Part shown: positions 1,324-32,082 of the stretch, one piece after another | Layout of the letters: each line of letters opens with the position of its first letter | Position numbering within the stretch: position 1 is the stretch's first letter | IMG/VR virus record: IMGVR_UViG_3300045110_000185 | Span: 1 to 32,082 of that record | DNA length: 32,082 nt | Origin: a virus | Reading direction: 5' to 3' (one strand) | Position numbers and translations under genes: made by a program | The notes under the pieces: model-generated | What the model saw: only the letters and a program-made list of their open reading frames with translations | What the model was told of the DNA's origin: nothing | Databases searched by the model: none

Positions 1324-2685
1324 TTATTCCGGGAGATTGCCCTTTCCGCCGAATGCTTCAAAGGCAGCATCGAGCGAACGATGGACGGTCAAGTCGCCGC
1401 GATTGGTCGCCCGTTCGACAATCGCATGCGCCACTATCTCAGACCCCAGCACGCCACCGCAAAATTCCAAATCCGAGACAAGCGTCCACGGTTTAGAATG
1501 CGACATCAGCCACTTGACCGCCGGGAGATCAACGGCATTCCCGCCGAGCAGCGTGTCACAGGGCAACTCACCTGCGAACCGCTTCCCGTTGCTGGCATAA
1601 ATCGCCAGCACCCCGCGCCCGTTGGAATGCCCGGAATAATACCCAACCGTCGCAGTCGGCACCAAAGCGCAAAGCGCGCTGAGGTTTGCACGACTCGCAC
1701 CCATCGAACCGGACGCATCTATCACCACGCAGCCGCCCGGTTTATTGCGAATGCGTTGACGGAATAAACCGTTGCTGTCGCCATTGATTACCGCAGCCAA
1801 GAAGCGAAGCGGGTTAATGATTGAGCCGTTGGGCGCGAACCGCCGATTGATTGACTTTTGCTTGTCGCAGGAAACGGTCTTTGGTCGCAAGTCGCGCAAT
1901 TCCATTTTCCCATCGAGCGCATCCCCAGCCTCGACCGGGGGCAGAATGTCGCCGGGCTTGCGTCCGGTCGGTTCTTCGTCTTGCCATTCCTGCTCCGGAC
2001 TTTCCAATAGCGCAACGAGCACCGAAATTGCCCTCGCGCGCCTTGACCGGACTTTGGCCAGATTGACCACGGTTGCAATCGCCCGGCTTAGCTTGTCACC
2101 CATCAGATGACGAACGTGGCGACGACCCCGGCGCGCCGTAAACTCGCTTTTAATATCAGCCCCGGTGCCGTAATGTTTGAGCATCGCCACCGTGCGAACC
2201 GCGTTGAGCAATTGCCCGTTCCGCAATTCGGGCGAATCTTTCGCCTTCCCTGTTCGGACTGCACGAACGTTTTTCTTCAACGTCCTCACTCCGTCCATCG
2301 CGGTTGCAAGGTGCGCCCGTTGATAAATCCGCATCATGCCGGGCGTTGCCGTGCTCGGAAGCATGGTGCTTTCAATGTTCACGTCATCCACGATTTGAGC
2401 GGCAATAGCCTCGTTTTCTGTCAGAGGCTTTTTTCGGCGCGGCGTGTGCCGGGTTGCGTGCCGGGTTTCATGTCCACGGATGGTGACGCCTTTGGCATTG
2501 TCGCCAATCGGCGCGCCTAGCTTGACTACATCTCGACGGTTCTTCTCGTCGTACTGCGTGAACCCGCCAATCTGCCCGGTTTGCTCGGGACGATCAGCTA
2601 GGACGATCTTTGCGCCTTTCAGCTTGCCATCAGGGACGGAGGCGCGGATTGCATCGCGCACGGTTTTGCGGTTGGGTTTTCTCAT
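1324..2685 (-). CDS. Metallopeptidase-like plus vWA (MIDAS) protein, MoxR partner
   Basis: A 453-residue protein with two recognisable parts. Residues 72-76 are HETRH, an HExxH zinc-peptidase signature, with a further His80 and then D100, D101 and N103. This spacing resembles the putative metallopeptidase domain often fused to vWA domains (DUF2201 type). A basic linker (about 110-250) follows. The C-terminal vWA domain begins with VVIDASGSMG, a complete MIDAS DxSxS (D323, S325, S327). The gene lies 5 bases downstream of a MoxR AAA+ ATPase. This is the classical MoxR/vWA pairing, known from RavA-ViaA and CobS-CobT-like systems, where the ATPase remodels a target bound by the metal-ion-dependent vWA domain. 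The target in this phage is unknown. Domain calls are firm from motifs; the biological role is inference. Confidence 0.8.
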   Translation of the reverse strand: MRKPNRKTVRDAIRASVPDGKLKGAKIVLADRPEQTGQIGGFTQYDEKNRRDVVKLGAPIGDNAKGVTIRGHETRHATRHTPRRKKPLTENEAIAAQIVDDVNIESTMLPSTATPGMMRIYQRAHLATAMDGVRTLKKNVRAVRTGKAKDSPELRNGQLLNAVRTVAMLKHYGTGADIKSEFTARRGRRHVRHLMGDKLSRAIATVVNLAKVRSRRARAISVLVALLESPEQEWQDEEPTGRKPGDILPPVEAGDALDGKMELRDLRPKTVSCDKQKSINRRFAPNGSIINPLRFLAAVINGDSNGLFRQRIRNKPGGCVVIDASGSMGASRANLSALCALVPTATVGYYSGHSNGRGVLAIYASNGKRFAGELPCDTLLGGNAVDLPAVKWLMSHSKPWTLVSDLEFCGGVLGSEIVAHAIVERATNRGDLTVHRSLDAAFEAFGGKGNLPE

Positions 2686-2690
2686 ATTGC

Positions 2691-3431
2691 TTAAGCCTTT
2701 AGACCGTTCCGCGCGGCGTCGATTAACGCCATTAGAATTGTCTTGCCTTGCCCCTCGCCGAATACCAATTCAGCCGCCAATTGATCGTCCACACCCTCAG
2801 CCCGGAGGTGCTCGAAACTAATCATCCGGCGCGGAGTGATCGACGGTGCCCAATCGTCCGTGTTCGGCTCATTCGCCATTTTGTTCAGAATGAAAGCCGC
2901 GCACTCAGGCGACAAGCGGCGCAGAATGCCGGAGTGGGGAGTGTCGCAACGCAGCACAATGTCAAAGCGATCAAGAACAGCCTCGGCCAATTGGTCGGGG
3001 CTTCCGTTCATTGTCGCAATCACCCGGTAGCCGGGCGCAGGTTCGACCGTCTCACCGTTGTCCAGATTGAGACGGCAGATGGCCGCATCATCGAGCACGG
3101 ACTGAAGCGGGGCATCTAATTCGCCGCCTGCCTTGTGAATCTCATCCAGCACCAACGGGCAACCTTTGAGAGCAGCACGGGTGGCGCAAGCATTCGACCA
3201 GTGGGTTGAGCCATCCCGGAGCAGGAATTTCCCGAATAGCGCATCTGCGAATTGAGACTGGTTAAGAGTCACCCGCTCGTATTCCGGAGAAAAGGAACAC
3301 GCAGCGGTTGTTTTTCCCGTGCCTGGCTTGCCGTGGAGCAGCCATCGGCGCGGAGGATTAACTAGAGCGTTGAGCATGGCCAGAATGCCCGGCCAGTCGG
3401 TAATTTTTAACGTTGTTTGATTTGGGTTCAT
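2691..3431 (-). CDS. MoxR-type AAA+ ATPase
   Basis: A 246-residue AAA+ ATPase. Visible motifs: Walker A GKPGTGKT (34-41), Walker B PLVLDEIHKA (D96, E97), sensor-1 ATMNGS (N142) and the arginine-finger motif LDRFD (R155). A lid region follows (PSITPRRM, about 196-203). The motif set and small size fit the MoxR/CobS branch, which works with a vWA partner; that partner is the next gene downstream. The start at 3431 has no Shine-Dalgarno sequence but a leader made of repeated AACCAAACCC-like units (3432-3462). Likely role: ATP-driven remodelling together with the vWA protein; the substrate is unknown. Confidence 0.85.
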   Translation of the reverse strand: MNPNQTTLKITDWPGILAMLNALVNPPRRWLLHGKPGTGKTTAACSFSPEYERVTLNQSQFADALFGKFLLRDGSTHWSNACATRAALKGCPLVLDEIHKAGGELDAPLQSVLDDAAICRLNLDNGETVEPAPGYRVIATMNGSPDQLAEAVLDRFDIVLRCDTPHSGILRRLSPECAAFILNKMANEPNTDDWAPSITPRRMISFEHLRAEGVDDQLAAELVFGEGQGKTILMALIDAARNGLKA

Positions 3432-15357: not shown

Positions 15358-15595
15358 TGAGGACGCCCTGATGGCCGATGGATTTGAGGACGCCATCATG
15401 GGCATAGTGGAGCGATGTGGGATGTCAGCCCTGGTCGTCTACGACACCCGGAAATGTATCGACATCCTCATAAACCGGGACAAGATGAGCGAACCCGAAG
15501 CGTGGGAACACTTTAACTTCAATGTGGCAGGAGCTTACATGGGCGTGAACACCCCGTTATTCTTTACACCTTATGCTAGTGATATACCCCTTTAG
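15314..15595 (+). CDS. Conserved phage protein (FEDAIMGIVERCG...FNVAGAYMGVNTP type)
   Basis: 93 residues. The motifs ADGFEDAIMGIVERCGM, LVVYDTRKCIDIL, MSEPEAWEHFNFNVAGAYMG and NTPLFF, in this order, mark a small protein found in very many phages, usually annotated hypothetical. All-helical, no established function. Overlaps both neighbours (44 bases upstream, 23 downstream), typical of compressed phage coding. Confidence 0.75.
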   Translation: MTDTLKIREWVAQFNEDALMADGFEDAIMGIVERCGMSALVVYDTRKCIDILINRDKMSEPEAWEHFNFNVAGAYMGVNTPLFFTPYASDIPL

Positions 15596-17372
15596 CGTTG
15601 TCGATGAACAGCTTGCGCTCAAAAACGCGCAATGGATTGCAGAGCTGGGAGAATATAAATCCCATGACGTTTTTATTTTGAGCGACCGACGCTGCAACCA
15701 GCAGATCATGGAGGATGTGGTAAAGACCCTGGGGAAAGTCTTCCGCCTCGCCAAGCACCGTCTGACGTCGTCTGACGTCGATGGCTGGCCGGAGGGAGCC
15801 AACCAGATGTTCAGCCTGGCCGCCACCCTCATCCAGCACACCAGGGAATGGCCCTGCTTCTTCTGGCTTGAGCCGGACGCCATACCGATAAGCCCGGGCT
15901 GGCTGGACGCCCTGGAGGCTGAGTATAAGCGCGGCGGCAAGCCCTTCATGGGCGAGCGCGTTGACCTTGGGGCCAAGCGACCCGATGTGCCCATCCATAT
16001 GTCCGGGGTAGGAATCTACCAGAACCCGATCTACCTGCTGGCCGGTGAATGCTACCGCGCACACGAAGTTGCCTGGGACATTGCCGCCAAAGACCAGATC
16101 ATCCCCAACGCACACTGGACGAAGCTGATTCAGCACTACTGGAAGCACGGCACGTTCACCCACCTGAATGAAATCCGGGAAGAAACCGTGGTGTTCCATT
16201 CCTCCAAGGACGGTTCACTGATTGACGTCCTGCGAAAAAACTTGAGCGGCAGTAGCAATACCGAATCGGGAGCAAGCAGCTTGGATGCAAGCCCCCGGCC
16301 ACAGGAAATCCTCGCACTCCAAGAGCAGCTACATCCTGTTAGTGGGAGTGGTGACCCACCCGCTCAGATTCATAAAGTACGTGACGGAACCTGGGTTCTG
16401 GAGAATGATGCCATCAGTGGCCGGGTAATGGAGGCCGGACGCCTTGATTTTGATCCCCTCATTCCTTACGTCCTCAAACACATCAGACCCGGTGATACCG
16501 TTGTTGATGTTGGTGCTTTTATTGGGGATCATACTGTTGCGTATTCTCACGCGGTAGGCAAAGCCGGGAAGGTGTTTGCCTACGAACCCAACCCCGATGC
16601 CTTCAAGTGCCTGGTTCACAACACCAACGGCATGTCGAACGTCTTCGGGTTCTGCCATGCGCTCGGAGCGCATGACGGTGTGGCTGGTTTGATAGGAGAC
16701 AACCCCGATAACTTCGCCTCACACTTCGTAGACCATAGCAACCGAAACGGAGGCCCGATCATCCAGGTGCAGCGAATGGATACTCAGATGTGTCTCTTTG
16801 GTCAGCTCGATCTCATTAAGATGGACGTTGAGGGATATGAATTGAACGCTCTTAAAGGCATGGAGCAGCTCATCGAAAAATTTCACCCGAAGATGGTGAT
16901 TGAGATTAACGAGATCGCCCTTAAAAGGCAGAACGCCACTCCCGAAGATGTCATCAGTTGGGTGGTGCGCCATGGATACGAAGTGAGCATCCTCCATCGC
17001 CATGGAGAGAACGTTCCTTTCTATGACATCCTCGCTTTGCCAGCGGCAAAACCACCGGAGACTATCAGCAGCGCACCTGCCCACGTTACCGAATCAGAGT
17101 GCGTTGCTACTCCGGTGGCTGCCCCGGTGGCTCCCCGCAACGTCTCCGTCCCTGATGCCGTTCAGCTCCTGGTGAATGAGTTGCAGGAGATCGCCGAAGT
17201 TTCCCCGGGCAACAAAGCCATAGTCACATCAAGACTGGTGTATGCCGGGCTGCGTCCAGTCGCACCAAAGAAACCCAAGATCATATATGCGACTGATCCA
17301 TTCGCTCCGGAGGCCAAGGGGAGTAAACGAGTCAGAAAGCGTAAGCCTCCCACTGTGGAACACCCGGCCTGA
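15573..17372 (+). CDS. Glycosyltransferase-like / FkbM methyltransferase fusion
   Basis: 599 residues. The N-terminal part (about 1-215) resembles GT-A-type glycosyltransferase-like phage proteins: it opens with a beta strand MLVIYPFSV, has ALKNAQWIAELGEYKSHDVFIL, the acidic site FFWLEPDAIPISPGWLDALE, and PIHMSGVGIYQNPIY. After a Ser-rich linker, residues about 270-490 form an FkbM-family SAM methyltransferase: VVDVGAFIGDHTVAYS (about 309-324, SAM loop), AYEPNPDAF, and LIKMDVEGYE (about 413-422). The tail (490-599) is Pro/Ala-rich and basic. It may transfer and methylate sugars on virion protein, DNA or host surface; the acceptor is not evident. The upstream gene overlaps by 23 bases. Last gene of the rightward unit. 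Confidence 0.75.
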   Translation: MLVIYPFSVVDEQLALKNAQWIAELGEYKSHDVFILSDRRCNQQIMEDVVKTLGKVFRLAKHRLTSSDVDGWPEGANQMFSLAATLIQHTREWPCFFWLEPDAIPISPGWLDALEAEYKRGGKPFMGERVDLGAKRPDVPIHMSGVGIYQNPIYLLAGECYRAHEVAWDIAAKDQIIPNAHWTKLIQHYWKHGTFTHLNEIREETVVFHSSKDGSLIDVLRKNLSGSSNTESGASSLDASPRPQEILALQEQLHPVSGSGDPPAQIHKVRDGTWVLENDAISGRVMEAGRLDFDPLIPYVLKHIRPGDTVVDVGAFIGDHTVAYSHAVGKAGKVFAYEPNPDAFKCLVHNTNGMSNVFGFCHALGAHDGVAGLIGDNPDNFASHFVDHSNRNGGPIIQVQRMDTQMCLFGQLDLIKMDVEGYELNALKGMEQLIEKFHPKMVIEINEIALKRQNATPEDVISWVVRHGYEVSILHRHGENVPFYDILALPAAKPPETISSAPAHVTESECVATPVAAPVAPRNVSVPDAVQLLVNELQEIAEVSPGNKAIVTSRLVYAGLRPVAPKKPKIIYATDPFAPEAKGSKRVRKRKPPTVEHPA

Positions 17373-17397: not shown

Positions 17398-17964
17398 CTA
17401 CGCAGGTTGAAGTTTATACGTAAAGTCCCCGTCAGTACCGGGAACGTCAGGCCATAGCTCGTAGAGATAGTCTTTGTTACTATCCCCGGAGTTGTGCTCA
17501 ATGTTCGGGTTGATCTTCTTGGCCAACACATAAGCTGTCTCTCCGGTCTTATCGTCAGGGCCGATGTCTCCCACCACACCATGCTCCTCCACCTGCGTTC
17601 TCAGGTTGGTCACCCTGCCACGGCAACCCATTACCACCCCGGGTAACTTGGCGCGAATCTGAGGAGGCACGACAATATACCTGTCCACATCAGCGTTCAT
17701 GTATTTGCTGCCAGTCTTGCCGCCGGAGCAGTAGGCGGTCATGGCCTGATGGTGCTTGTCACCATGAGCAGGGCCGCTTCCGTCGTTGCAGATGTCCAGG
17801 TTTGACACAAAGCTGCAATAGGTTTTGTCCCTGTTGGTCAGGATGTCCACCGACCCGATGGTCATCAGCACTTCAAGGTCTTCAATGGTAGTAGGAGGAG
17901 GTGCCGCCTTCTCTACGGTGATAACAAGGACGTCTCCGGGGTTAAGTTTTATGTTCTTTGTCAT
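17398..17964 (-). CDS. GH75 chitosanase-like glycoside hydrolase
   Basis: 188 residues. After a short N-terminal beta segment (NPGDVLVITVEKA), the rest matches the GH75 endo-chitosanase pattern: AHGDKHHQAMTAYCSG, a strand DVDRYIVVPPQ, then VVGDIGPDDKTGETAYVLAKKI. D133 and E142 are 9 residues apart in GDxGPxxxxGE, the same spacing as the catalytic Asp/Glu of GH75 enzymes. It is the last gene of the late operon, where lysis or virion glycan-degrading enzymes often lie. No signal peptide is seen. It may cleave a glucosamine-rich cell-surface polymer or peptidoglycan glycan. Family call good, substrate inferred. Confidence 0.65.
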   Translation of the reverse strand: MTKNIKLNPGDVLVITVEKAAPPPTTIEDLEVLMTIGSVDILTNRDKTYCSFVSNLDICNDGSGPAHGDKHHQAMTAYCSGGKTGSKYMNADVDRYIVVPPQIRAKLPGVVMGCRGRVTNLRTQVEEHGVVGDIGPDDKTGETAYVLAKKINPNIEHNSGDSNKDYLYELWPDVPGTDGDFTYKLQPA

Positions 17965-17965
17965 A

Positions 17966-19618
17966 TTAGTTACCTGTTACTGTTCCGTGGAACTGGGTCT
18001 TGCCGCGCTTTGCTGGTGCAATGTGTGCTGGCCGCTCGTAGTGCGACCCGAACCCTGCGAACTCAGCTGCCGTAAGGATTGCGGCATGAAGGATCATGTC
18101 TGCCTTGGGCTGGCTTAGACCCTGCGCGCGCATGCGATCATAAATATCACGCGCTGGCCCGGACAAAAAGATTGGAATGTGCGTAGCGGTATATTCCCAG
18201 CCGCTGTAATAGGGTTTCCCTGTCCTGGGACTGGCCTGGTGTAAACCTGTGAGGCTTGCCGCATGACGTAGCTCCTGGATGCCTTTTGGGAGCGGCCTGC
18301 CGAAGATGTCAGTTCCGTAACCAAGCTCCACTGCCGTGGTAACCCCGGGGGACAGCTTGTATTCAATGAACTGCTGAATTGAATCCATGGCTTCATCCAG
18401 GGCGGAGTGCCCGTGCAGCTGACGCTTGTTTGCGTGCGCGATGGCAGCCAGTTGGCCATACAAACGAAGGACTTCCTCCGGGCCACGGGTCGAAATGATG
18501 TCGCCCTTCCCGGTCTTGAACCGCAGCCAGTCGCTCTTGCGCGGGTCGTCCCAGTTGATCTTCTGGCTGGAGCCGAAGGCGCGCATCACAATGTCGTTCA
18601 GGATCAGCCCGGCAGCCCAGGTTCCCAGCATGGCTGAAGCATGCCCCAGCCGAACCATCATGGCAGCGCGCTCGCCTGCGCTCACCTTGCCGCCGCTCAT
18701 CATTTTCACTGCTGTCCCCACGGTAATGAGCGGGTCACGCGATGCCCGGAGTATCTTGGACGCGGTAAGTTGAGGCGCAAAGAACAGCTTGCTCTGTCCC
18801 AGCCACCTGCCCAGACCCACATTGGTCACCCCGGTGGCGTGATTGGCCACTTCAGCCAGGTGCTTCATGATGTCCTGGCGTTCGGCGTCCGTCTTCCACT
18901 TGAAGTTTTTCAGGCTTTGCTCCGCAAACTCGTAGCGCATCCTGGAAAGCCCCAGCCAGGAACGGCTGCTCCAGTTGGGACTCTTGGTGATCCACTCGTT
19001 CAGGATGCCTGAAGGTCTTTCCTCTACCCCAATGCGAAGACCGGCACTTCGCCATTCGGCATAGTTGTGCGCGTTCTGGAGGTCGAGCCTGGCCTGCTCG
19101 TAATACGCCTTACCCCGTGTTCCCCCAGGCAGATCAAATGTCGCCCACGATACCTTTGCGCCTCTCCAGAACGTGCGCCATTCCCATGGGTTAAGAAGCA
19201 GCGCGCCACCGTGGGTGACCGGGAACACACCTCCATGGAGCGCGACCAGTGAGGCCCGGGGTATCTCACCTACTGCGCGAATGAAACGCCACACAGGGCT
19301 TTTATCGGCGCGGTCAATCATCTGCTGGGTCTTAAGGATGGCCATGCGACGGGCATCTTCCTTGGCAAAGATTTCCTTGGTCTTGATTCTCGGGCCTGAT
19401 TTCCGGCCAACGATGACCTCCTGGAACAACCGGGGAGGAGCACCTGTCTCCCTGGCCAGGGCATTGATGGTGTCCTCAAGGGAAACACCATTCTCAAGGT
19501 AGCGTTTCTTGGCGTACTCCCAGATGGGCCGGATTTTCTTGGCATCCAGGTCAAAGTCCTTGTCCTTCCCGGCAGTCAGGGCTTTGTAATCAATGCAGGG
19601 TAGTTTTGGGGCAGGCAT
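17966..19618 (-). CDS. Polyvalent-associated / internal virion protein
   Basis: 550 residues, mostly helical, separated by 1 base from the giant gene upstream and 1 base from the chitosanase gene. The N-terminus has a helical part (about 25-110). Residues 120-320 are rich in aromatic and basic residues (LLLNPWEWRTFWRGAKVSW, WSSRSWLGLSRMRYEFAEQ). Hydrophobic helices at about 325-350 (AMLGTWAAGLILNDIVMRAF) may enter a membrane. Its layout resembles the C-terminal large-polyvalent-protein-associated regions of phage ejection proteins, here in a separate gene. No enzymatic motif seen. Likely packaged and ejected with the giant protein; inference from order and type. Confidence 0.5.
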   Translation of the reverse strand: MPAPKLPCIDYKALTAGKDKDFDLDAKKIRPIWEYAKKRYLENGVSLEDTINALARETGAPPRLFQEVIVGRKSGPRIKTKEIFAKEDARRMAILKTQQMIDRADKSPVWRFIRAVGEIPRASLVALHGGVFPVTHGGALLLNPWEWRTFWRGAKVSWATFDLPGGTRGKAYYEQARLDLQNAHNYAEWRSAGLRIGVEERPSGILNEWITKSPNWSSRSWLGLSRMRYEFAEQSLKNFKWKTDAERQDIMKHLAEVANHATGVTNVGLGRWLGQSKLFFAPQLTASKILRASRDPLITVGTAVKMMSGGKVSAGERAAMMVRLGHASAMLGTWAAGLILNDIVMRAFGSSQKINWDDPRKSDWLRFKTGKGDIISTRGPEEVLRLYGQLAAIAHANKRQLHGHSALDEAMDSIQQFIEYKLSPGVTTAVELGYGTDIFGRPLPKGIQELRHAASLTGLHQASPRTGKPYYSGWEYTATHIPIFLSGPARDIYDRMRAQGLSQPKADMILHAAILTAAEFAGFGSHYERPAHIAPAKRGKTQFHGTVTGN

Positions 19619-19619
19619 A

Positions 19620-22600
19620 TCAGGGGCAGATTACCATTTCGGCAATGTATTTGAACAAGTCGTCACCATTTTTTATCTCCTTGACCAGCTCCGGGGATTC
19701 CTTTGCCAGCTGGGCGTCACGTTTCATCAGCTCTTTGTTGCGCGCTTCCACGGTCTTATGGATTTGCTTCAGGAGTTGTTCCGCATCCTTTCGTTGCGCC
19801 GTGGTAAAGTCATGCCCGTTCTGCCGGATCATCTGCTGCCGCAGATCGGTCATGCTGCGCGGGTTGTATTCTTCAGGCGGCATGCCCGGGTGCTCGGCGT
19901 CAACAGCATCCCTGATTGGCTTCACGGTCTTGGTGTCCCAGTTGGAGTAATCAGCAAAGGCTTTGTCGGCTGCGTCCTTGTTCGCCTGGGTGGGATGGGT
20001 CTTGGCCAGGTTCTCTGCGTGCTCTGAAACCTCCCGCAAATCCTCGGCGTGCGCTTTTACCACGGTGTATTTCTGCTCGCTGGGGATTGCGCGAGAAGCA
20101 GCCACGGCCTCTGGGTCAACGCCATGCCTGATGGCTTCCCGGCCAGCGTCGATGATGTCGTTATGCGACATGCCACCGGAGGAATCAACGGACTCTGTTA
20201 TCCCTTCGTCATGGAATTTCTGGAGCGAGTTGGAGATGACCTGGGACATCTGCTGGTCGGACAGGTCGCGCAACCCCGGGCCAGCAGCCTCATTGGCGGT
20301 AGGCGGCCTTGGTTCATAATCGCCCGTCTCTACCGGTCGCGGTGCGAACTCGCGCTGCTCTGGGGTTTCCGGAGGCTGCGCTGCCGCTTCCTTGATCCCT
20401 GCCAGGGTGTCCTTGATGCCACTGACTCCAGCGGTGTCACCCCTGACCGCTTTAACTCCCTGGTCAAACTCCTTGTCGGACAACGCTGAGATTTCGTTCT
20501 TTGTCCAACCCGATTCCTTGACCAGATTTTCGTAATCCGTCCTGTGTCTTTCCTGGTCGTATTTTGGTGACCCGCGATGGTATTGGAACTGCCTCTCCAG
20601 TTCTGCCGACACCTGTTGCTCGCTCCATTTGTTCCTTCGGATTGCACCCTGGTCAAAGACAGCAGCTTCATAAATCTTTCCGTCTGGCAGCTTTGAAATA
20701 ACACCGTCGTATCCCTGCTTCTGATACTGACGCATCCTGGCTTGATTGATGTAGCTGCTTTCCGAGGCTCCCATTTCATGGGCACCTGAACGCACTTGCT
20801 CCTCGGTTATCTGGATGACCTTGGGATTCTTGAGGTGCAAGCTGTGCTCGCTGGGTTCCCTGAAGATGCCGTTCTGCTCCTCGTAGCCCCTGGCGAACTC
20901 TTTGTCCGGGGTAAAATAAACAGGAGGTTTAAGGTCACCAGTGCCCAGCCCGCGCTGTCCCTGCCCGTGATAAAATGTGATCGGCTCCCCTGAGGGATGA
21001 GAAAGAGGCTCGGCTAAGCCACCTCGTCCACCGACCCCTTCAGAAACGGGGGCGGCGGCAGACCTTCCTTGAGGCTCGGGTGGGGTAGCAGCGACTTCGG
21101 GGTGGGCGGGTTCAGCTCCGGACTTCTCTCCGGATTTCGCAGCCTCGAGGATTGTTCCGAGCTGCCCAGATTTTGGATTTGTTTCTCCAGCTCGTCCAGG
21201 GCCGGTTTGTCCGGGGTCTTTATCGCTGACAGCTTCCTGTGCATGCTCTGAAGGAACACCTTTGTCAGTTCCTTTACCTCCTTTGGATTCTGGCTCAAGT
21301 TGCGAGCCAGTTTTGAAACCTTCGGAACGGTTTGCTGTACTTTTAGCGAAGTACTTATCTCTGATTTCATGTAATGTGTCCCAATGTTGACTTAACACCT
21401 GCTCCATCGTCTGTAAAAACTTTTGTTGCTCCGGAAAATCAGCCATCCTTCCGATGTTGTTGATTTCTTCCCTGGTAAATCCACCCCCTTCGTTACGTTC
21501 CGGAACATGGGTAATCTCATGGAGGAATATATGCAGCATTTCAAACGCTGCCCTTCTGGGACTACTCATCCCACCGTCAGAAATTCCGGCAGGATTAGCC
21601 CAGAGCGACCTGAATGGGTTGGTTATATTGTATCCGGCATACTTCGCATCGTATGAAATACCACCAAGCCATGCTTTGCCAGGTGTGGTATTGGTGAGTT
21701 GAGCATACTCAGGCCGTGCTGTTGGGTCTGCCCCGAATTTGGCACCGAATGCGCGCATGAACTGGATAAGCATGCTGCCAAGTTTGGCGTGCAGTTCGGG
21801 AGCACCCTTTATCTTCTCGAAATCAACGTTGGTATTGTTGTGATATAGAGGATTCTTCGGGTCTAGGTGACTGGTATCCAGCTTTGTCTTTTCAAAATCA
21901 ATTTCTCTTTCGGCACTGAACGATGGTTTGTTAAACTGCTCATGTGATTGAACCTCTTTCTTGCCACCGGCATAAGTGGTAACCACCTTGTCACGCTTAA
22001 CATCTACACTTTGAATCTTTGGCAGCGTAACCCTTCCTGCTGCTCCCTGGGTGGCATCGCCCTGATAAAGCTGGTCAGCGGTAAAGGTTTTACCCATGTC
22101 CTCAATCGGGATATGGGTCATTACCTGTAGTTCCTTGAACTGTTCCTGGGACTTCTTCAGGTCTTGCTCCAGCCCCTGCCTTTTCAGGTAGGAATACATG
22201 GCAGTGGCGTCAGCCTTTACCGAGCCGCGCCATCCTTCCCTCTGGTTATCGAAAGGATACTGAGGGTCTTTGGTGTCAACATGCGGCCTGACATCAATCA
22301 CCATGTTGTGGGGTATCCGCTGTTCCGCCTTGTCGAAGATGTGCTGCCAGGGAACTTCAAACTGATGCAATCCAGCCGACATTACCCTGTACACGGGAGG
22401 ATATGTGCCCTCTGTATACGTGTATTTCTTTAGCGGGCTGGGATCGACGTAGACATTGGCATGGCCCCAGTCGAAATTGAATACGTTATCCTTCACCCAG
22501 CCCGTGCTGTGAATCCCCATGTGGTTTGGAACCCCGTTCACTTTTACTTCCACATCACCAAAAAGAGGGTTCTTCAGGAACTCGGGATCGGTATCGAAAT

Positions 22601-25600
22601 GAACGGGAATGGTTTCACCCTTGCTGTTGATGTAGTCTTTGGGGATTTCCACGGTGACCGTGCTTCCATTAGGCTCATTGGTGTAGGTCTTAACCAATGG
22701 AATCTGGTTGGCCTTTACCTGCTCCCGGCTTACGTCCATCACGGTTTTCAGGCCATCCTTGACTGTTACCAGCTTGATTCGTTTTGAACCCTTGATGAAT
22801 GCCAGCTTCGCCACGCCCAACCCACCGGATGTATTCTGGTGGTCACCGCTTTTCTTTGTGCCACCGGTTCGCAGGAAGGCAGTCACAATAGTTTCAGGAG
22901 ACATGCCCACTCCATCATCTCTGACGGTGATGGTGCGAGTATCGTAATCGTAATCAATGCTTATCTGGCCGGGCTTTGCCTTGCTTACACCACCTTCGCG
23001 CACCGCATCAAAACCGTTCTGAAGCAGCTCCTTGATGATGACGTTTACGATTGAATTACTGTAAGCCTTCTCGCCTATCAAACGATCTACCTGCTCCGCG
23101 TCCTGGCTGGTTCCTACAATGTCCGTTCCGGGTTCAGACTTGGGAAGCGAGAGGTCTTCCTCCTTCTTTGCGGCAATGGCAATGTCCTTGTCCAGCTGGT
23201 CAGGACTTTTCTTGCGCCCGGGCAGCCAGGACTTTTGCGGCGACCATTTTTCATCATCGGATTGTTTAACAAAATCTCCTTCAATGACGCCTTCCTGCTT
23301 GTCTTTGAGCCGATACAGTTCGGACAATTCATCCTTTCCTATATCCCCAATGCCCATTATTTTTTTACTGAGCTTGGTCTGCAACTGAACCATTCGGCTA
23401 AATTCATCCTGGGTAAGACCGCCCTTTGCTTCACCTCCTCCTGGAGCTGCTCGCATTGGCTCCTGGTAATCCCCGAACGATTGGCGTTCCAGCTCATGCG
23501 CGCGCCCTTCGTCCCCGTAAACTTTATTTCCGCTCCGCAGCCGCTCATCAATCAGGTTGATAGCGTCATCCGGGGTTTCGACATCGAAACCTCTGTTCTT
23601 CAGGAGCTGGGTCAGGCTGTCCATGTTGCCCTGCGCCTTGGCCTTGAACACTTCTCCGAAATAGAGCTTCTCCCCGCTACCGCTGGCCAGGGGCCGGTGC
23701 TTCTCCTGGCCGTATTTGTTCTTCGGCGCGAAGTGCTCCTTGAGGTTCCTAAGTTCCCCGGAGTAATTAGGATCATTCAGGGGAACGCCATGCTCGGACA
23801 CGACATCAAGCAGCTCATCTCCGCCCTTGGCCTGGTGGCCCTGGGCTTCCTCCAGTAAGGACGCCTCATACTCCCGCTGCATCTTGAGCAGCTCCTTGGC
23901 TGTTTCGTCTGACCCCTTCTCGGCTGTGGCTTTGGCAACCTGCGCCAGAAACGTCTTGTCCAGGGCTGCCTTACGCTTCTGGGCTGCTTCCTCGGTGCTG
24001 AACGGAATGGTCAGGGCGTCAGGCTTACGACTGTCTACCACCTTGTATACGCCGTGATCCTCCTTAATAGAGAATGGGGTTTCCGGGGTTGTCGGTTCCT
24101 TTACCGGATCACGCACATACCTGGTTCCGAACTGGTCTTTGCCATCCACCCTGAATCCCAGCTTTTCATAAAAGCCAGGAAGATCGGTTCTCTGTTCCCC
24201 GACATGCAGGGTGAGTGGTATCCCGGACTTGTCAGCGTCGGCAAACACCTGCTCCATCAGGGCTGTTCCTTCGCCCTGCCTGCGCGCCTCTGGCTTAACG
24301 AACAAGTCCCTGATGTATCCGTTCTTGGACACTTTGACTGAGGCATTCTCGGTGCTGTATTCGGACTTCAGCCCCGAGTCGTGCTCTATCACCGGTTCAG
24401 CTGGCTGCCGTGCAGCTTCCAGCTCGGCCATCTTGGCCCTGGCTTCTTCCTCAGTGGCTTTGACCGAGACAATCTTGTTCGCTTCCCGGTCGATGACTCC
24501 GAACCCCAGGGCATCTTCCTTGATGTAGTACGGACTTTCCGCTACCGGCTCTGTCGCCGCTTCGCCAGCGCGACCGCGATTGCCTGCTGGTTCGCTACCG
24601 ACCGGCCCTTTGTCTGTAACGTTTTCTGGTACGTTTTGCCCAGATGAAACTCCCGGATGTTGCTCGACACTACTTTCTGCGACTGGCCCTTCTTGAGTGG
24701 CATTTGTGATTCCTCCTTCTGTTCCTGGTTTTGGTATTGGTGCTTCTGGTAAAGGTGCTGCTGGCGCGCGCGCAATTTCGGACGCGGGATGAATCGGTGG
24801 ATTAGTCTCAAAAGGAAGTAACCCCGGGATTACTGGTGTGGGCGGAGGAACCATCCCTGGAGCGACTGGAGGACTGGGTGGTGCAGGCCCGGCAGGAGCT
24901 GCTGGCCCAGCCGCAGGAGGCGCGCCACCGCTGGCCAATGTCTTGGCCGCCGCAGCTGCCGCCGGGTTCGGCTTATGAAACCATGGCTCACTGAAAATTA
25001 ACCCCGTGGCTGCGGCCACGGCCAGCTGAGTTGGATCAAACTTACCGGACTCAATCTGGTCTTTGACGTTGAAAGCCGAGTTCAAACCTCCAGCCATGGA
25101 CACATTGATGACGTTCCCTATTTCATCCACGGCTTGAGGAGCCATCCCCTTGCCGCCTGTCTTGGTGAACGCGACCAGGGCTGCCCGGCCTTCCGCGCTG
25201 GCCAGGGTCTTACCTGCCCTGACAACATTCATTGGGTTTGGCTTCCCGAAGGAAAGCCCGCCACCCACGATTGATGCGTAAGGATGTGCCTCCGTCTGGG
25301 CCTGCTCTGTCTTGGAGGAAAATGCTCCCCCGGGGGAAATCACATCAGCCGCTGCGGTTTGAAGTTTTGACACTCCCCATGCGGCAGCCGCACCAGCAAT
25401 CAATCCACCAAAGACTCCACCGATTGCTTCACTGATGCCGGTTTCTCCAGCTACTGGCACAGCTGCTCCAACCAATGCACCACGGGCTGCTCCTACTGCT
25501 GCTGCCCCTGCAATGCTACCCCAGGGATAAGCTGCCAGCATTGCCCTTCCTGGCAGGAAACCTCTGACCGCAGCACCGCCAATGGCTGCAATCGCTCCTG

Positions 25601-25844
25601 GCTTTCCCTGCTGGGAAAGAGTAGTGGATTGATCTTGAACCGCCTTGTCAGTGTAAGGAGTCCCGGAATGAGAAGGAGAAGCGGTAGCGGTAGGCGTAGG
25701 GCTGTGGCTCTTGTTGTAAAAATCAAGGATGTCCTGATCCGGGTCAGGGGTCATCGTGGCCGCAGGCGACCCACCAGGAGACGGTGATCCCTTACGCTGA
25801 TTATAAAAATCAAGAATGTCCTGATCTGGATCGGGATCAGCCAT
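19620..25844 (-). CDS. Giant polyvalent protein (GNAT, GHKL ATPase, HEITH peptidase, ART-like)
   Basis: 2074 residues, the largest gene in the window. In order: the 12-mer PDPDQDILDFYN twice (4-15, 33-44) in a Pro/Ser linker; a Gly/Ala-rich hydrophobic part (about 84-160); a Pro-rich region (about 290-440); two related short units beginning IKED (about 440-480, 590-635) flanking a GNAT-like domain with RRQGEGTAL (about 520) and YEKLGF (about 560). Then a GHKL ATPase: N-box E939-LLQ-N943, DDGVGM (976-981), GGLG (1007-1010). Later H1442-EIT-H1446, a zinc-peptidase signature, and an ART-like region from YHGQG (H1626) through VYFTPDKEFARGY to IYEAAVFDQGAIRR (about 1740). The tail is charged and helical. 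Multidomain effectors of this build are known as phage polyvalent proteins, thought to enter the host with the DNA. Domain calls vary: GHKL and GNAT firm, ART and peptidase moderate. Confidence 0.75.
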   Translation of the reverse strand: MADPDPDQDILDFYNQRKGSPSPGGSPAATMTPDPDQDILDFYNKSHSPTPTATASPSHSGTPYTDKAVQDQSTTLSQQGKPGAIAAIGGAAVRGFLPGRAMLAAYPWGSIAGAAAVGAARGALVGAAVPVAGETGISEAIGGVFGGLIAGAAAAWGVSKLQTAAADVISPGGAFSSKTEQAQTEAHPYASIVGGGLSFGKPNPMNVVRAGKTLASAEGRAALVAFTKTGGKGMAPQAVDEIGNVINVSMAGGLNSAFNVKDQIESGKFDPTQLAVAAATGLIFSEPWFHKPNPAAAAAAKTLASGGAPPAAGPAAPAGPAPPSPPVAPGMVPPPTPVIPGLLPFETNPPIHPASEIARAPAAPLPEAPIPKPGTEGGITNATQEGPVAESSVEQHPGVSSGQNVPENVTDKGPVGSEPAGNRGRAGEAATEPVAESPYYIKEDALGFGVIDREANKIVSVKATEEEARAKMAELEAARQPAEPVIEHDSGLKSEYSTENASVKVSKNGYIRDLFVKPEARRQGEGTALMEQVFADADKSGIPLTLHVGEQRTDLPGFYEKLGFRVDGKDQFGTRYVRDPVKEPTTPETPFSIKEDHGVYKVVDSRKPDALTIPFSTEEAAQKRKAALDKTFLAQVAKATAEKGSDETAKELLKMQREYEASLLEEAQGHQAKGGDELLDVVSEHGVPLNDPNYSGELRNLKEHFAPKNKYGQEKHRPLASGSGEKLYFGEVFKAKAQGNMDSLTQLLKNRGFDVETPDDAINLIDERLRSGNKVYGDEGRAHELERQSFGDYQEPMRAAPGGGEAKGGLTQDEFSRMVQLQTKLSKKIMGIGDIGKDELSELYRLKDKQEGVIEGDFVKQSDDEKWSPQKSWLPGRKKSPDQLDKDIAIAAKKEEDLSLPKSEPGTDIVGTSQDAEQVDRLIGEKAYSNSIVNVIIKELLQNGFDAVREGGVSKAKPGQISIDYDYDTRTITVRDDGVGMSPETIVTAFLRTGGTKKSGDHQNTSGGLGVAKLAFIKGSKRIKLVTVKDGLKTVMDVSREQVKANQIPLVKTYTNEPNGSTVTVEIPKDYINSKGETIPVHFDTDPEFLKNPLFGDVEVKVNGVPNHMGIHSTGWVKDNVFNFDWGHANVYVDPSPLKKYTYTEGTYPPVYRVMSAGLHQFEVPWQHIFDKAEQRIPHNMVIDVRPHVDTKDPQYPFDNQREGWRGSVKADATAMYSYLKRQGLEQDLKKSQEQFKELQVMTHIPIEDMGKTFTADQLYQGDATQGAAGRVTLPKIQSVDVKRDKVVTTYAGGKKEVQSHEQFNKPSFSAEREIDFEKTKLDTSHLDPKNPLYHNNTNVDFEKIKGAPELHAKLGSMLIQFMRAFGAKFGADPTARPEYAQLTNTTPGKAWLGGISYDAKYAGYNITNPFRSLWANPAGISDGGMSSPRRAAFEMLHIFLHEITHVPERNEGGGFTREEINNIGRMADFPEQQKFLQTMEQVLSQHWDTLHEIRDKYFAKSTANRSEGFKTGSQLEPESKGGKGTDKGVPSEHAQEAVSDKDPGQTGPGRAGETNPKSGQLGTILEAAKSGEKSGAEPAHPEVAATPPEPQGRSAAAPVSEGVGGRGGLAEPLSHPSGEPITFYHGQGQRGLGTGDLKPPVYFTPDKEFARGYEEQNGIFREPSEHSLHLKNPKVIQITEEQVRSGAHEMGASESSYINQARMRQYQKQGYDGVISKLPDGKIYEAAVFDQGAIRRNKWSEQQVSAELERQFQYHRGSPKYDQERHRTDYENLVKESGWTKNEISALSDKEFDQGVKAVRGDTAGVSGIKDTLAGIKEAAAQPPETPEQREFAPRPVETGDYEPRPPTANEAAGPGLRDLSDQQMSQVISNSLQKFHDEGITESVDSSGGMSHNDIIDAGREAIRHGVDPEAVAASRAIPSEQKYTVVKAHAEDLREVSEHAENLAKTHPTQANKDAADKAFADYSNWDTKTVKPIRDAVDAEHPGMPPEEYNPRSMTDLRQQMIRQNGHDFTTAQRKDAEQLLKQIHKTVEARNKELMKRDAQLAKESPELVKEIKNGDDLFKYIAEMVICP

Positions 25845-25845
25845 G

Positions 25846-26853
25846 TCAGGGATTCTGTTCTAGCCAGAATTGGGCAGCTGTACGTTTATCCGGGGGTGAA
25901 TCAGGATCGTCTAAAATCCTCTGTGCCCGTTCCCTGGCAGTATTAGCTGGCTTTGCGTAAACACCGTATTGGGGAATGTCGGTAGTTGGAAGTCTATCGG
26001 CCTCGGCCTTCTGTGCCGCTTTCCAGCGTTTTGCCAGATCAGTTAAATCTGTGGCCTTGAATCTAATCGGTTTTTGCTCACCCGTGGGAAGCGTAACTGA
26101 CCCAGTCCTATAACCGGTTGGTTTCGGTTTCTCGCCACCCTCGCCGTATGGTTGTCCGGTAGCCCATTTTTTAATGTTGCCAAACATGGTTTCTCCCCCG
26201 GTTGTTTCTTCCGGATACAACTCAGGATGTTCAAGTGGATCAGTCAAATGCCCCAGTGTTGTGTCGCCATATATTTTTGAGCCAATTTCCTCCTTGAGTG
26301 TTTTTACCTGGTGGTCAATCGCCGTATTTTGCCGGTTGGCGTTGATGTTGTAATCGTTGACGTTAGTCTGTATCAACATGCGGGCCTTGGAAGGGTCAGC
26401 ATCCCGGGAGTTATTTGTCACAGCCTGGACAAATGCGTTTGGAAATTCCTTACTGTCCTTGGGAACTGTTGCCAATACATTACTAGCAGCATCGAACATT
26501 GCTTTATCGCCCGCAGCCTTCCTATCGAACGTGTCAAAGGCAAGCTGAACCCGGGCATCACGCGCATCAGCCGTTTGCCGCTGAATATCGAGCAGCTGAT
26601 CCTTGTGCTCATTATTGGACTGCAACCGGTCAACAGCCAGTTGATACTTCTTTTCATTCAGGGCGGAGTCCTGCTCCATGGCCTGCATCTTAAGAGCATA
26701 CTGGGCCATCTTGCCTATTAGTTCCTGCTTCTTGGCAGCGATATTCCCCCAGATGTAAGCACCACTGAGTAACTTTGCGCCCATGTCCGGGCCTTTAAGG
26801 TCTGGCCAACCGGGTTCAACGATTGGCCCAAATGCTGATTGTACTGCTGGCAT
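25846..26853 (-). CDS. Coiled-coil internal virion protein candidate
   Basis: 335 residues. Residues about 35-125 form a long helical coiled coil (AKKQELIGKMAQYALKMQAM and on). The middle (about 130-190) is helical, and the C-terminal third has a small Gly/Pro-containing part with KPTGYRTGSVTLPTGEQKPI and a Lys/Ala-rich helix. No enzymatic motif. Position between neck-type proteins and the giant polyvalent protein is where podoviruses keep their ejection (internal core) proteins. No family recognised. Confidence 0.5.
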   Translation of the reverse strand: MPAVQSAFGPIVEPGWPDLKGPDMGAKLLSGAYIWGNIAAKKQELIGKMAQYALKMQAMEQDSALNEKKYQLAVDRLQSNNEHKDQLLDIQRQTADARDARVQLAFDTFDRKAAGDKAMFDAASNVLATVPKDSKEFPNAFVQAVTNNSRDADPSKARMLIQTNVNDYNINANRQNTAIDHQVKTLKEEIGSKIYGDTTLGHLTDPLEHPELYPEETTGGETMFGNIKKWATGQPYGEGGEKPKPTGYRTGSVTLPTGEQKPIRFKATDLTDLAKRWKAAQKAEADRLPTTDIPQYGVYAKPANTARERAQRILDDPDSPPDKRTAAQFWLEQNP

Positions 26854-30045: not shown

Positions 30046-30351
30046 TCAGGTTTTCGCTAGGCTTCTTTCGACCAGTCTCTGGGCGTGGAGCCTGAATCGG
30101 TCGATGACGACATGGCCGGTGCCGACAAATTTAACTTGGAAATCGTAACCCCGGCGTAACCTCCGGCCTGTCGTTAGGTCAACGTCGTTCTGGGGCTTGC
30201 CCAGAGGAACTCGGGGCGCAAACCCGGCTTTCACCGTGGGCACTCCACCTGCGTCAATAGCCCCGGCCTTGCCGATCATGGTGAACTCCCTCCAGAGAGT
30301 CCAGTATGGGTAATTATCCGGACGGTAATAAATGCGTAAATCGTGGCTCAT
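30046..30351 (-). CDS. Small virion-associated hypothetical protein
   Basis: 101 residues starting MSHDLRIYYRPDNYPYWTLW. The ATG at 30351 overlaps the upstream stop (ATGA), which is preferred over an ATG 7 codons earlier. Beta-rich with RPDNYPYWTLWREFTMIGK and RGYDFQVKFVGTGHVVIDRFRLHAQRL, which looks like a small beta-sandwich next to a tail protein. It may be a tail completion or fibre-linking protein; inference. Confidence 0.55.
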   Translation of the reverse strand: MSHDLRIYYRPDNYPYWTLWREFTMIGKAGAIDAGGVPTVKAGFAPRVPLGKPQNDVDLTTGRRLRRGYDFQVKFVGTGHVVIDRFRLHAQRLVERSLAKT

Positions 30352-32082
30352 TCGACAATGTCCTTCAGCCACAGGTCGCCATCATAGAGTTCATTCTCAG
30401 TGAACACGGTGGAGTCCTGCGGGTTAAGTTTATTGAAATCGAAGGAACGGGTGGTCATGTCCCAGTTGATGCGCGTATCATCAAAATCGTCCTTGTCATC
30501 TTTCGACAGCTCGTAAAGCTGGTTCTCTCCTTCGTTGTTTATTCCAAAGATAAATGCACGCGTAACCCCTTGGAACGTCCCCGTCAGCATGGTGGTGGGA
30601 TTAAACTGGTCACTGTACCATTGGCCTTCCCACGCTGGCTTGGTGATTTGCTGTGGCTGTCCACCGCTGAAGGAACTGATGACATCAAAATCCACCACCG
30701 CCATCCCTGCGTGCATGGGCCTGCCGTTGTTCCACATGGGTGAAGTGGTCACCAGCACGCGGTTATCGAAGTAGATGGCGGAAGCGTATTTAAGCAGGAA
30801 GTCGCTGTCGTTCCCCAGGTATTGTTTCATGTTTGTGGACAGCGGGATGTGCGCCCAGCCGCTCTGCTCGCTGCGCGCCTGGCGGTAGGAACGCATGCCG
30901 TCATCCGACCTGAACCAGAGGTCTTCGTTCACCACAGAGATGGAGCGATGTCCCCGAAGCCCGGTGGTAAGAAGTGCCAGGATTTGAAAAGATGAAGTCT
31001 TCCAAAGCTCACGCGGCAGCGACAAGAAAAAGCTGGTGGCTCCACGCTCGGCAAACACCATGAGCTGGCCGTTACCAGTAGAGGTGTCCAGCTGCGGGAA
31101 GAAGATCATCCCGGTGGCTATACCCTGGGTAAACGGAATAGCGGCATCAAAACCTTCGGCCAGAAAGTTGCGCTCGGTGAACAGGATCAATGAATCGGCA
31201 GCATCAGGAAGATCGTGGCTTCCATGGAGATCACCAAAAGCCACCTCGCGCTTGTTCACGATCACGCAGAGTCGTCCCATCCCGTAGGCCATGATGGTTC
31301 CGGTAGGAATCTCAGTGTTGTCAACGTCAACGCTGACCTTGGCCCTGCGCGCCTTGACTGAATCGTAGATGATGGCGTTGGCTTTTCCATCCTGCGCGAT
31401 TAGCCATTTGTCGGCCTGCACCATGTAAGCGATGGGGGAATCAGACATGTTGCGTAGGTCGCGCCCTTCGTCCTGGATGATGACTTCAGTGACTTTGGCT
31501 TCGGTGACACGCGGGACAATCCTGAACATGCGACCACCGATCATGGCGATGATGCAGTCGTCCCCATTGTGCGGGGAATAGGCGACTGCGCTTTGCAGGA
31601 TGCCGTGCTTGTAGATGTACTCCGAGTTCTGATTAGTGAACCAGGGATCAATGGTGGAGTGCTTCAGGATCGTATGGACGCCTGTGCCGGAGTGGTTGAA
31701 CCCAATCGCCGGGCCTCCTTCGGTAAGGGAAATCCGCAGCTTGGTTGCGGTCAGCCCTTCTACCAGGACATGATACACCGTGGTCGTGTTGACGTTCGGA
31801 GGAAGCGACCCTGTCGTGGTAAACTTTACCAGGTCATTGGCCACCAGGTTATGGGCAACGCTGACGAGGATGTTTTCAGGATGCGAGGGTTCAGCATGGA
31901 ACCGGCAGGTTCCGATAGGAACAAGCGATCCCAGCGGGATATTGCCCGGCCTGTATTCTCCCTCAATGAAGTCCCGAGCGGGTGCTGGAGTGGGATATGT
32001 GTGCGCTTCATTGAAGCACCATTTCTGAATGTTGAGCTGGGCAAAGGTTTCATCCAGTTTTCTGAACCCCGGGCGAGTCTTC
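30348..32082 (-). CDS. Tail nozzle / tubular-B-like beta-propeller protein (5' end outside window)
   Basis: At least 577 residues; the frame stays open to the right edge, and reading minus-strand codons from 32081 gives KTRPGFRKLDETFAQLNIQK and onward without a stop. An internal GTG at 31844 is therefore not the true start. Repeated beta-rich units such as GKANAIIYDSVKA, MAYGMGRLCVIVNKREVAFGD, DLWFRSDDGMRSYR and RAFIFGINNEGENQLYEL fit a beta-propeller like podovirus tail-tubular B or stabilisation proteins. No catalytic motif. It is the first gene of the visible part of the late operon. Family call is from pattern, not firm. Confidence 0.6.
   Translation of the reverse strand, partial: KTRPGFRKLDETFAQLNIQKWCFNEAHTYPTPAPARDFIEGEYRPGNIPLGSLVPIGTCRFHAEPSHPENILVSVAHNLVANDLVKFTTTGSLPPNVNTTTVYHVLVEGLTATKLRISLTEGGPAIGFNHSGTGVHTILKHSTIDPWFTNQNSEYIYKHGILQSAVAYSPHNGDDCIIAMIGGRMFRIVPRVTEAKVTEVIIQDEGRDLRNMSDSPIAYMVQADKWLIAQDGKANAIIYDSVKARRAKVSVDVDNTEIPTGTIMAYGMGRLCVIVNKREVAFGDLHGSHDLPDAADSLILFTERNFLAEGFDAAIPFTQGIATGMIFFPQLDTSTGNGQLMVFAERGATSFFLSLPRELWKTSSFQILALLTTGLRGHRSISVVNEDLWFRSDDGMRSYRQARSEQSGWAHIPLSTNMKQYLGNDSDFLLKYASAIYFDNRVLVTTSPMWNNGRPMHAGMAVVDFDVISSFSGGQPQQITKPAWEGQWYSDQFNPTTMLTGTFQGVTRAFIFGINNEGENQLYELSKDDKDDFDDTRINWDMTTRSFDFNKLNPQDSTVFTENELYDGDLWLKDIVE

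Follow-up and report, generated by a model that had tools for sequence, protein, structure and literature searches.

The closest described systems

Hsp90, gyrase and MutL are among the machines powered by GHKL ATPases, and we know of no GHKL ATPase that serves as the motor of a protease. In Hsp90 and GyrB, ATP closes the GHKL clamp and an arginine of the transducer domain completes the site. A GHKL ATPase is found here joined to a zincin domain within P0001, the 2074-residue product of a single open reading frame (ORF) in an IMG/VR virus record 32,082 bases long (IMGVR_UViG_3300045110_000185, positions 1 to 32,082; this whole stretch is called the window). Together the two domains make up a single conserved unit, about 600 residues long, which recurs in giant ORFs of other, uncultivated viral contigs. 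No description of a GHKL–zincin pair was found in the literature searched, mostly open literature rather than subscription papers, and the unit is real and conserved, apparently undescribed, and part of a protein of a known kind.

That known kind is the polyvalent protein. In the main text of Iyer et al. (2017, PMC5512222) the zincin MPTase appears as a hub domain of polyvalent proteins, with HExxH peptidase, GNAT and ART among their themes and a phage-type GNAT typically having an ART neighbour in the same polypeptide. P0001 resembles these proteins in being giant and multi-domain with zincin, GNAT and ART themes, and some of its relatives carry LPD, InPase, RadC, ddrB-ParB and kinase domains; it differs in having a GHKL domain fixed to the zincin, whereas that main text contains no GHKL, Hsp90, HATPase, histidine kinase, chaperone, rIIA or WLM. 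A second point of reference is phage rIIA, which the pertinent part of PMC7824862 describes as a GHKL domain with a C-terminal domain that varies, and counts among counter-defence systems that are poorly understood. We tentatively read P0001 as a polyvalent-type protein bearing an ATP-gated GHKL–zincin protease that would be packaged and ejected with the DNA and act on a host target, a reading to which we give somewhat less than an even chance.

A conserved GHKL–zincin unit

The 2074-residue ORF reported at 19620–25844 in a first-pass annotation of the window is present on the minus strand with an ATG start, and the GHKL ATPase with three nucleotide-binding motifs claimed there holds up: Pfam HATPase_c_3 matches residues 934–1058 above cutoff (E 5.9e-11), and the N, G1 and G2 boxes together with a predicted Bergerat fold place the domain in the GHKL superfamily. 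The HExxH site named there is likewise found, as HEITH at residues 1442–1446 inside a folded zincin domain (about 1329–1476). A GHKL fold is indeed predicted in the slice proposed for it (890–1120), but that slice is too small, two folded domains extending over about 913–1321, and listing the GHKL domain as an independent item was mistaken, as the HExxH domain is linked to it at a nearly constant distance. The parts of the unit are these, with residues of P0001 in brackets:

19620..25844, minus strand: gene of P0001, a 2074-residue polyvalent-type protein; single ORF with ATG start, same protein in a second viral contig
22620..23132, minus strand: GHKL (Bergerat) ATPase N-domain (905–1075), from Pfam, HtpG profile match and model
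23004..23033, minus strand: N-box KELLQNGFDA (938–947; E939, N943, D946), by motif
22902..22919, minus strand: G1 box DDGVGM (976–981; D976xG978xG980), by motif
22806..22829, minus strand: G2 box SGGLGVAK (1006–1013; G1007/G1008/G1010), by motif
21861..22619, minus strand: predicted transducer/middle domain of the ATPase (1076–1328), from model comparison and rIIA profile match
22236..22259, minus strand: YPFDNQRE loop with R1202 (1196–1203), aligned with the rIIA FTPSRE loop
21417..21860, minus strand: zincin domain, probably Wss1/WLM-like (1329–1476), from profile and model
21489..21521, minus strand: HEITH (1442–1446) and third ligand E1452, spanning 1442–1452, by motif

A protein identical to P0001 is encoded by the viral contig IMGVR_UViG_3300045284_000262 (G001, 53,810 bases), which the window matches over its full length at 99.9% identity or higher, and this twin was the sole match in a search of viral contigs with the whole of P0001. 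The GHKL slice brought in one further contig, G002, whose ORF of at least 4131 amino acids (aa) aligns with P0001 922–1449 (pairwise E 4e-57) and carries the Pfam domains SLT, InPase, helicase and GHKL, a polyvalent-type set. The alignment of these two proteins (A1) led to five further contigs, L017 and L018 being near-identical, and the resulting six-row alignment (A2) was searched against IMG/VR, giving 57 loci including the twin, i.e., 56 others, which were also picked by G1 or YPF.NQ patterns.

An HExxH lies 380–760 residues past the G1 box in 44 of these 56 loci, and within 461–513 residues in 33 of the 44; in P0001 the distance is 466. Among ORFs of at least 1100 aa, thinned by hand, it occurs in that interval in 29 of 30, against 0.056 expected per 380-residue stretch from the frequency of HExxH in the remainder of those ORFs, which rules out a chance HExxH. 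(Near-duplicates were removed by hand for this test and for the repeat test given below.) HExxH is missing from the interval in 12 loci: L045, three whose ORF lies at a contig end, and eight that hold a small GHKL ORF. Of short ORFs, 11 fall below the 1100-aa limit, and every one lacks HExxH in the interval: three touch a contig end, and the others are small GHKL proteins, including rIIA-type ones and one HtpG-like. In L045 (5939–13696) insertions split the unit so that HExxH stands 807 residues past G1, and its zincin is matched at E 5.4e-34 by a profile built without L045. The zincin profile found no match in L046 and L052, both cut contigs, or in L058 and L068, and because of this failure the HExxH of the latter two, both counted in the 44 of 56 and the 29 of 30, may belong to another domain.

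HExxH is present in all six rows of A2, which was made before HExxH was used in any picking, and in all 17 rows of A3, an alignment of full-length proteins in which 13 of 13 invariant columns fall inside the unit and the single near-invariant column outside it is D1713. These invariant columns, together with the G1–HExxH spacing, rule out independent GHKL and HExxH domains. The larger alignment A5 has 29 rows, with 28 of 35 distinct carriers chosen by G1 pattern and an HExxH 380–760 residues on; L044, L050, L055, L058, L060, L068 and L069 were left out as too divergent, some close pairs are retained, and the L008 row stops at a contig edge just past HExxH. Six residues not used for picking (N943, G1007, G1010, K1013, G1060 and R1202) are invariant in 29 of 29 rows, while G1008 and E939 are kept in 28 and D946 in 27; an insertion shifts the aligned N-box of L019 and L020 out of register, KELLQNSFDA lying upstream. 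The third-ligand column, also not used for picking, holds His in 23 rows and Glu in six.

Outside the unit, five pieces of P0001 searched by phmmer against the ORFs of related loci gave nothing at E 0.01. Since no record among 50,697 phage records held most of the unit in protein searches, most deposited phages seem to lack it at the sensitivity of those searches. No match to the zincin profile came from six genomes reached by locus, nor from 398 genomes of the phylum of one of them, and the L018 unit, compared with plasmids, matched four records, all at query residues 1–84 only. A scan of genome contigs with the generic G1 pattern only, which returned at least 80 loci, the 80 kept lying within query residues 1–367, says little. 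In this analysis the unit has so far been seen only in viral contigs.

Relation of the ATPase to Hsp90, GyrB and rIIA

In the PDB the A5 profile matches the N-domains of HtpG, TRAP1 and Hsp90, best of all HtpG (E 2.7e-12). An AlphaFold2 model made on A5 for P0001 residues 900–1530 (mean predicted local distance difference test, pLDDT, 80.4; predicted template modelling score, pTM, 0.70) is aligned by VIA-align with Hsp90, GyrB and TopoVI-B at Z 16.9–19.1. Because these alignments run over 279–306 residues in 49 of the 50 matches listed, the ATPase is predicted to include a transducer domain of the Hsp90/GyrB type, and would thus share with Hsp90/HtpG/TRAP1 and GyrB/TopoVI-B the succession of Bergerat ATPase and transducer/middle domain, at an identity of 11–17% among the matches listed. 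A histidine kinase is ruled out, the fold and transducer domain indicating Hsp90, GyrB or rIIA. Compared with Hsp90 and its C-terminal dimerisation domain, most model alignments end by model residue 422; that C-terminal domain was not identified in P0001, where the zincin follows instead. The Hsp90-type N and middle domains are what might be looked for if the GHKL part were a chaperone that unfolds or refolds the giant protein during ejection, the zincin being structural. We consider this very improbable, as a structural remnant would not need a third-ligand column that reads Glu or His in 29 of 29 rows.

The nearest named family is rIIA. In hhalign, five rIIA-type proteins align with the unit over 294 columns (98.8%, E 1e-16), YPFDNQRE falling opposite FTPSRE, and the GHKL and second domains are homologous to those of phage rIIA; the alignment of the same loop to PLN.SRE of HtpG is itself not significant (-1.9 bits). 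The unit also matches RIIA PHROGs, and many of its named BFVD matches are RIIA; one BFVD match is A0A516L4L2 (E 9.3e-44). With an E limit of 10, tblastn of the GHKL slice matched 868 phage records, and among the 60 of these listed the names are rIIA in 41, other in 2 and uninformative in 17. Only one phage record, NiceHouse gp134, is matched by the whole of P0001, and it adjoins an rIIB-like gene.

T4-type rIIA, alike in its GHKL and second domain with RE loop, is a separate gene beside rIIB and lacks HExxH, whereas here the module is part of a giant protein that also has a zincin, and P0001 is not a separate gene paired with rIIB. None of the five rIIA-type proteins checked has an HExxH, and the rIIB profile matches only in L064 and L065, directly after a small GHKL ORF and not with the unit; a plain rIIA gene is thereby ruled out. 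A subtler proposal, that the unit is an rIIA-like GHKL switch protecting the infection from exclusion systems and the zincin a C-terminal addition, draws on the same hhalign match, RE loop included, but meets the same missing HExxH and rIIB, and the zincin is conserved across carriers rather than variable. We judge it improbable.

The zincin domain

Modelled alone from a 31-row alignment (A9), the zincin gives an AlphaFold model with pLDDT 86.6 and pTM 0.81, for which VIA-align places four Wss1 entries first (Z 8.0–8.5; the next match has 6.3). The A9 profile reaches Wss1p at E 0.018, and a loose search (per-record E up to 0.01) finds the WLM family in 15 of 30 carrier records, each time across the HExxH of the unit, the positions being obtained by coordinate conversion from the locus data. 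With moderate confidence, then, the HExxH domain is a Wss1/WLM-like zincin. It shares with the Wss1-type WLM metalloproteases, the closest solved fold, the order of HExxH, third ligand and xxxF, and differs from them in being fused to an ATPase.

A more far-reaching proposal is that the unit represents an undescribed class of ATP-gated protease, an rIIA/Hsp90-type clamp covalently linked to a Wss1-like protease, which would enter the cell with the DNA and strip off or cut proteins on the incoming genome. We think this rather unlikely; if true, it would give a lead on the role of the rIIA ATPase itself.

Polyvalent-protein and virion context

The label of polyvalent protein given in the first-pass annotation suits P0001, which shares themes with the main text of PMC5512222, and some of the ORFs that share its core carry polyvalent domains. 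Across 31 proteins (17 including P0001, plus 14), matches at E 0.01 comprise ART-PolyVal in seven, P0001 among them at this family level, LPD38 in six, ddrB-ParB in three, and InPase, RadC, Kinase-PolyVal and LPD22 in two each; the named domains among carriers are LPD1/5/22/38/39, InPase, RadC, ddrB-ParB, Kinase-PolyVal and ART-PolyVal. Unusual partners in the 31 giant ORFs (A3 and A4) are Sigma70_r1_1 in three, FtsK_gamma in one and MORN in one.

In five of nine related loci a neighbouring gene belongs to the head, tail or packaging functions. L018 carries InPase, LPD5, LPD1, MutS_I and RadC ahead of the unit, and a portal gene is the second gene downstream; in L022 a terminase gene lies two genes before the unit-bearing ORF and a portal gene directly after it; L026 and L055 are near the virion structural family phrog_3287, and L060 is near a tail protein. 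In G001 the P0001 gene is co-directional with more distant tail-fibre and head-decoration PHROG genes, one of them collagen-like. L019 and L021 have ORFs of at least 3154 and at least 3242 aa directly 5' of the unit-bearing ORFs, with no PHROG at E 0.001.

Such surroundings also suit a role in assembly, in which the zincin would process the giant protein itself or virion proteins, the GHKL domain would be a folding or packaging chaperone, and no host target would exist. Precedents in the main text of PMC5512222 (Iyer et al.) are P1 DdrB, which is cut before packaging and for which MPTase autoprocessing was proposed, and N4 vRNAP, whose MPTase region is needed for encapsidation. Some carriers do sit among packaging genes, and the same phage has a MoxR-like AAA and HExxH-vWA pair, of a sort that the part of PMC7824862 dealing with such pairs ties to assembly. 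An ATPase, however, is not obviously needed for self-cleavage, and the MPTases in the main text of PMC5512222 are described without any GHKL. Moreover, the unit-bearing proteins are otherwise without a match to P0001 (blastp, phmmer), and because the rest of their sequences is unmatched no shared cleavage site is apparent. We hold the assembly role to be fairly unlikely.

Proposed function and significance

The preferred reading, an ATP-gated GHKL–zincin protease aimed at the host, would work as follows. Binding of ATP would close the GHKL clamp around its substrate, a protein or protein–DNA complex, and the transducer arginine would, by analogy with Hsp90 and GyrB, complete the ATPase site; the clamp would then present this substrate to the zincin, 240 residues past that arginine, which would cut it while clamped. 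We infer that the whole protein is packaged and ejected with the DNA, that the site is catalytic and gated by ATP, and that the target is the host rather than P0001 itself; the GNAT and ART domains would modify further host proteins. The injection, and the action on host defence or transcription, that the first-pass annotation suggested are likewise inferred.

Several observations weigh against this proposal. The polyvalent MPTases are largely discussed as self-processing in the main text of PMC5512222. The selection of rows for A5 itself accounts in part for the conservation of G1 and HExxH there, and among the seven divergent carriers the N-box is found in seven and the G2 pattern in five, but the Arg-loop pattern in none, so that the transducer Arg loop is not universal, or not recognisable, in them. 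The likeness to Wss1 is modest at Z of about 8, and Foldseek returns nothing for the zincin model at E up to 0.001, Wss1 coming first at E 1.1. WLM matches are below cutoff in 14 of 15 cases, L028 alone passing it, and the same loose search matches five of 14 control genomes, none over cutoff. P0001 itself departs from the Wss1-type proteases, as Pfam finds no WLM domain in it at E up to 1 and its third ligand is Glu, as in six of 29 rows, not His. As for the virion, four of nine loci, with one or two neighbours scanned, have no head or tail family match: L030 and L027 have no such neighbour and carry primase/helicase on the other strand, and L019 and L021 have no match with one neighbour scanned each. 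Neither a PHROG nor an above-cutoff Pfam family matches the terminase, portal and capsid candidates of G001, and eight neighbouring proteins in the window are without any PHROG match.

A conserved GHKL–zincin unit in the giant proteins of many phages suggests a common need in early infection or assembly. At about 600 residues it offers a target for biochemical work and, with rIIA as its nearest named relative, a route to asking what the rIIA ATPase does.

Other features of P0001

Outside the unit, the protein carries the following:

25800..25832, minus strand: N-terminal motif, copy 1, DPDQDILDFYN (5–15), from sequence
25713..25745, minus strand: N-terminal motif, copy 2, DPDQDILDFYN (34–44), from sequence
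25350..25595, minus strand: Gly/Ala-rich hydrophobic stretch (84–165), from hydropathy
24132..24338, minus strand: GNAT acetyltransferase domain (503–571), Pfam Acetyltransf_10 at E 5.6e-10, above curated cutoff
20640..20993, minus strand: ART-PolyVal-like region (1618–1735), Pfam, below cutoff

P0001 thus joins GNAT, GHKL and zincin in one 2074-residue chain, as a multi-effector polyvalent protein does. The GNAT domain had been called correctly at about 490–640, and the region matches GNAT structures in the PDB from E 0.0016. For the ART-like region the slice 1600–1750 was about right, but the ART-PolyVal match (E 9.1e-5, 23.7 bits) stays below the Pfam cutoff of 31.2. As to the suggestion of a rare domain set, the GHKL domain is unusual, but GNAT with ART is not rare, going by the main text of PMC5512222.

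The duplicated short motif reported earlier is the repeat at residues 5 and 34, which outscores all 300 background windows. A self-repeat in the first 120 residues within the top 5% of background is seen in nine of 25 giant ORFs, two of the nine (L028 and L045) being low-complexity or diffuse. The repeats differ: ENPEKAKRL in L018, YDL..ARAA in L047, SPFE..L.EDL in L049, SGW.INPL in L060 and EWDG in L031. Such duplicated N-terminal motifs are possible packaging or docking tags. The Gly/Ala-rich stretch (84–165) is a possible membrane-active segment; its weak match to MccV (E 0.46) is not significant.

Neighbouring genes

The genes directly flanking that of P0001 are:

25846..26853, minus strand (same direction): 335-aa gene directly upstream, no family match
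17966..19618, minus strand: 550-aa gene directly downstream, no match

A single base separates the TGA of the 335-aa gene from the ATG of P0001, and tblastn with the 550-aa product in phage records found nothing useful. PHROG and Pfam searches of the close neighbours gave no informative family, and blastp of eight neighbour proteins against the ORFs of related loci gave no match at 1e-3 (best 0.022). One sub-cutoff match is to GH75 chitosanase (E 2.3e-4), at 17398–17964 on the minus strand, two genes after P0001. The plus-strand gene at 15573–17372 has an FkbM methyltransferase domain at residues 312–470 and an N-terminal part without a Pfam match, and the minus-strand gene at 30046–30372 has a 108-aa product in the window, whereas in the twin contig, within otherwise near-identical DNA, the product is 112 aa long.

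At 1324–3431 on the minus strand, a MoxR-like AAA ATPase (2691–3431; Walker A GKPGTGKT) adjoins a protein of 453 aa that has HETRH at residue 72 and, at 323, the vWA-like sequence DASGS. The two resemble the MoxR and metallopeptidase-vWA pair of jumbo phages described in the pertinent part of PMC7824862; the longer contig here is 53.8 kb. That jumbo-phage pair is like the GHKL–zincin unit in linking a phage ATPase with a metallopeptidase, and differs from it in being of AAA+ type and divided between two genes, the similar-looking pair in the window standing separately from P0001.

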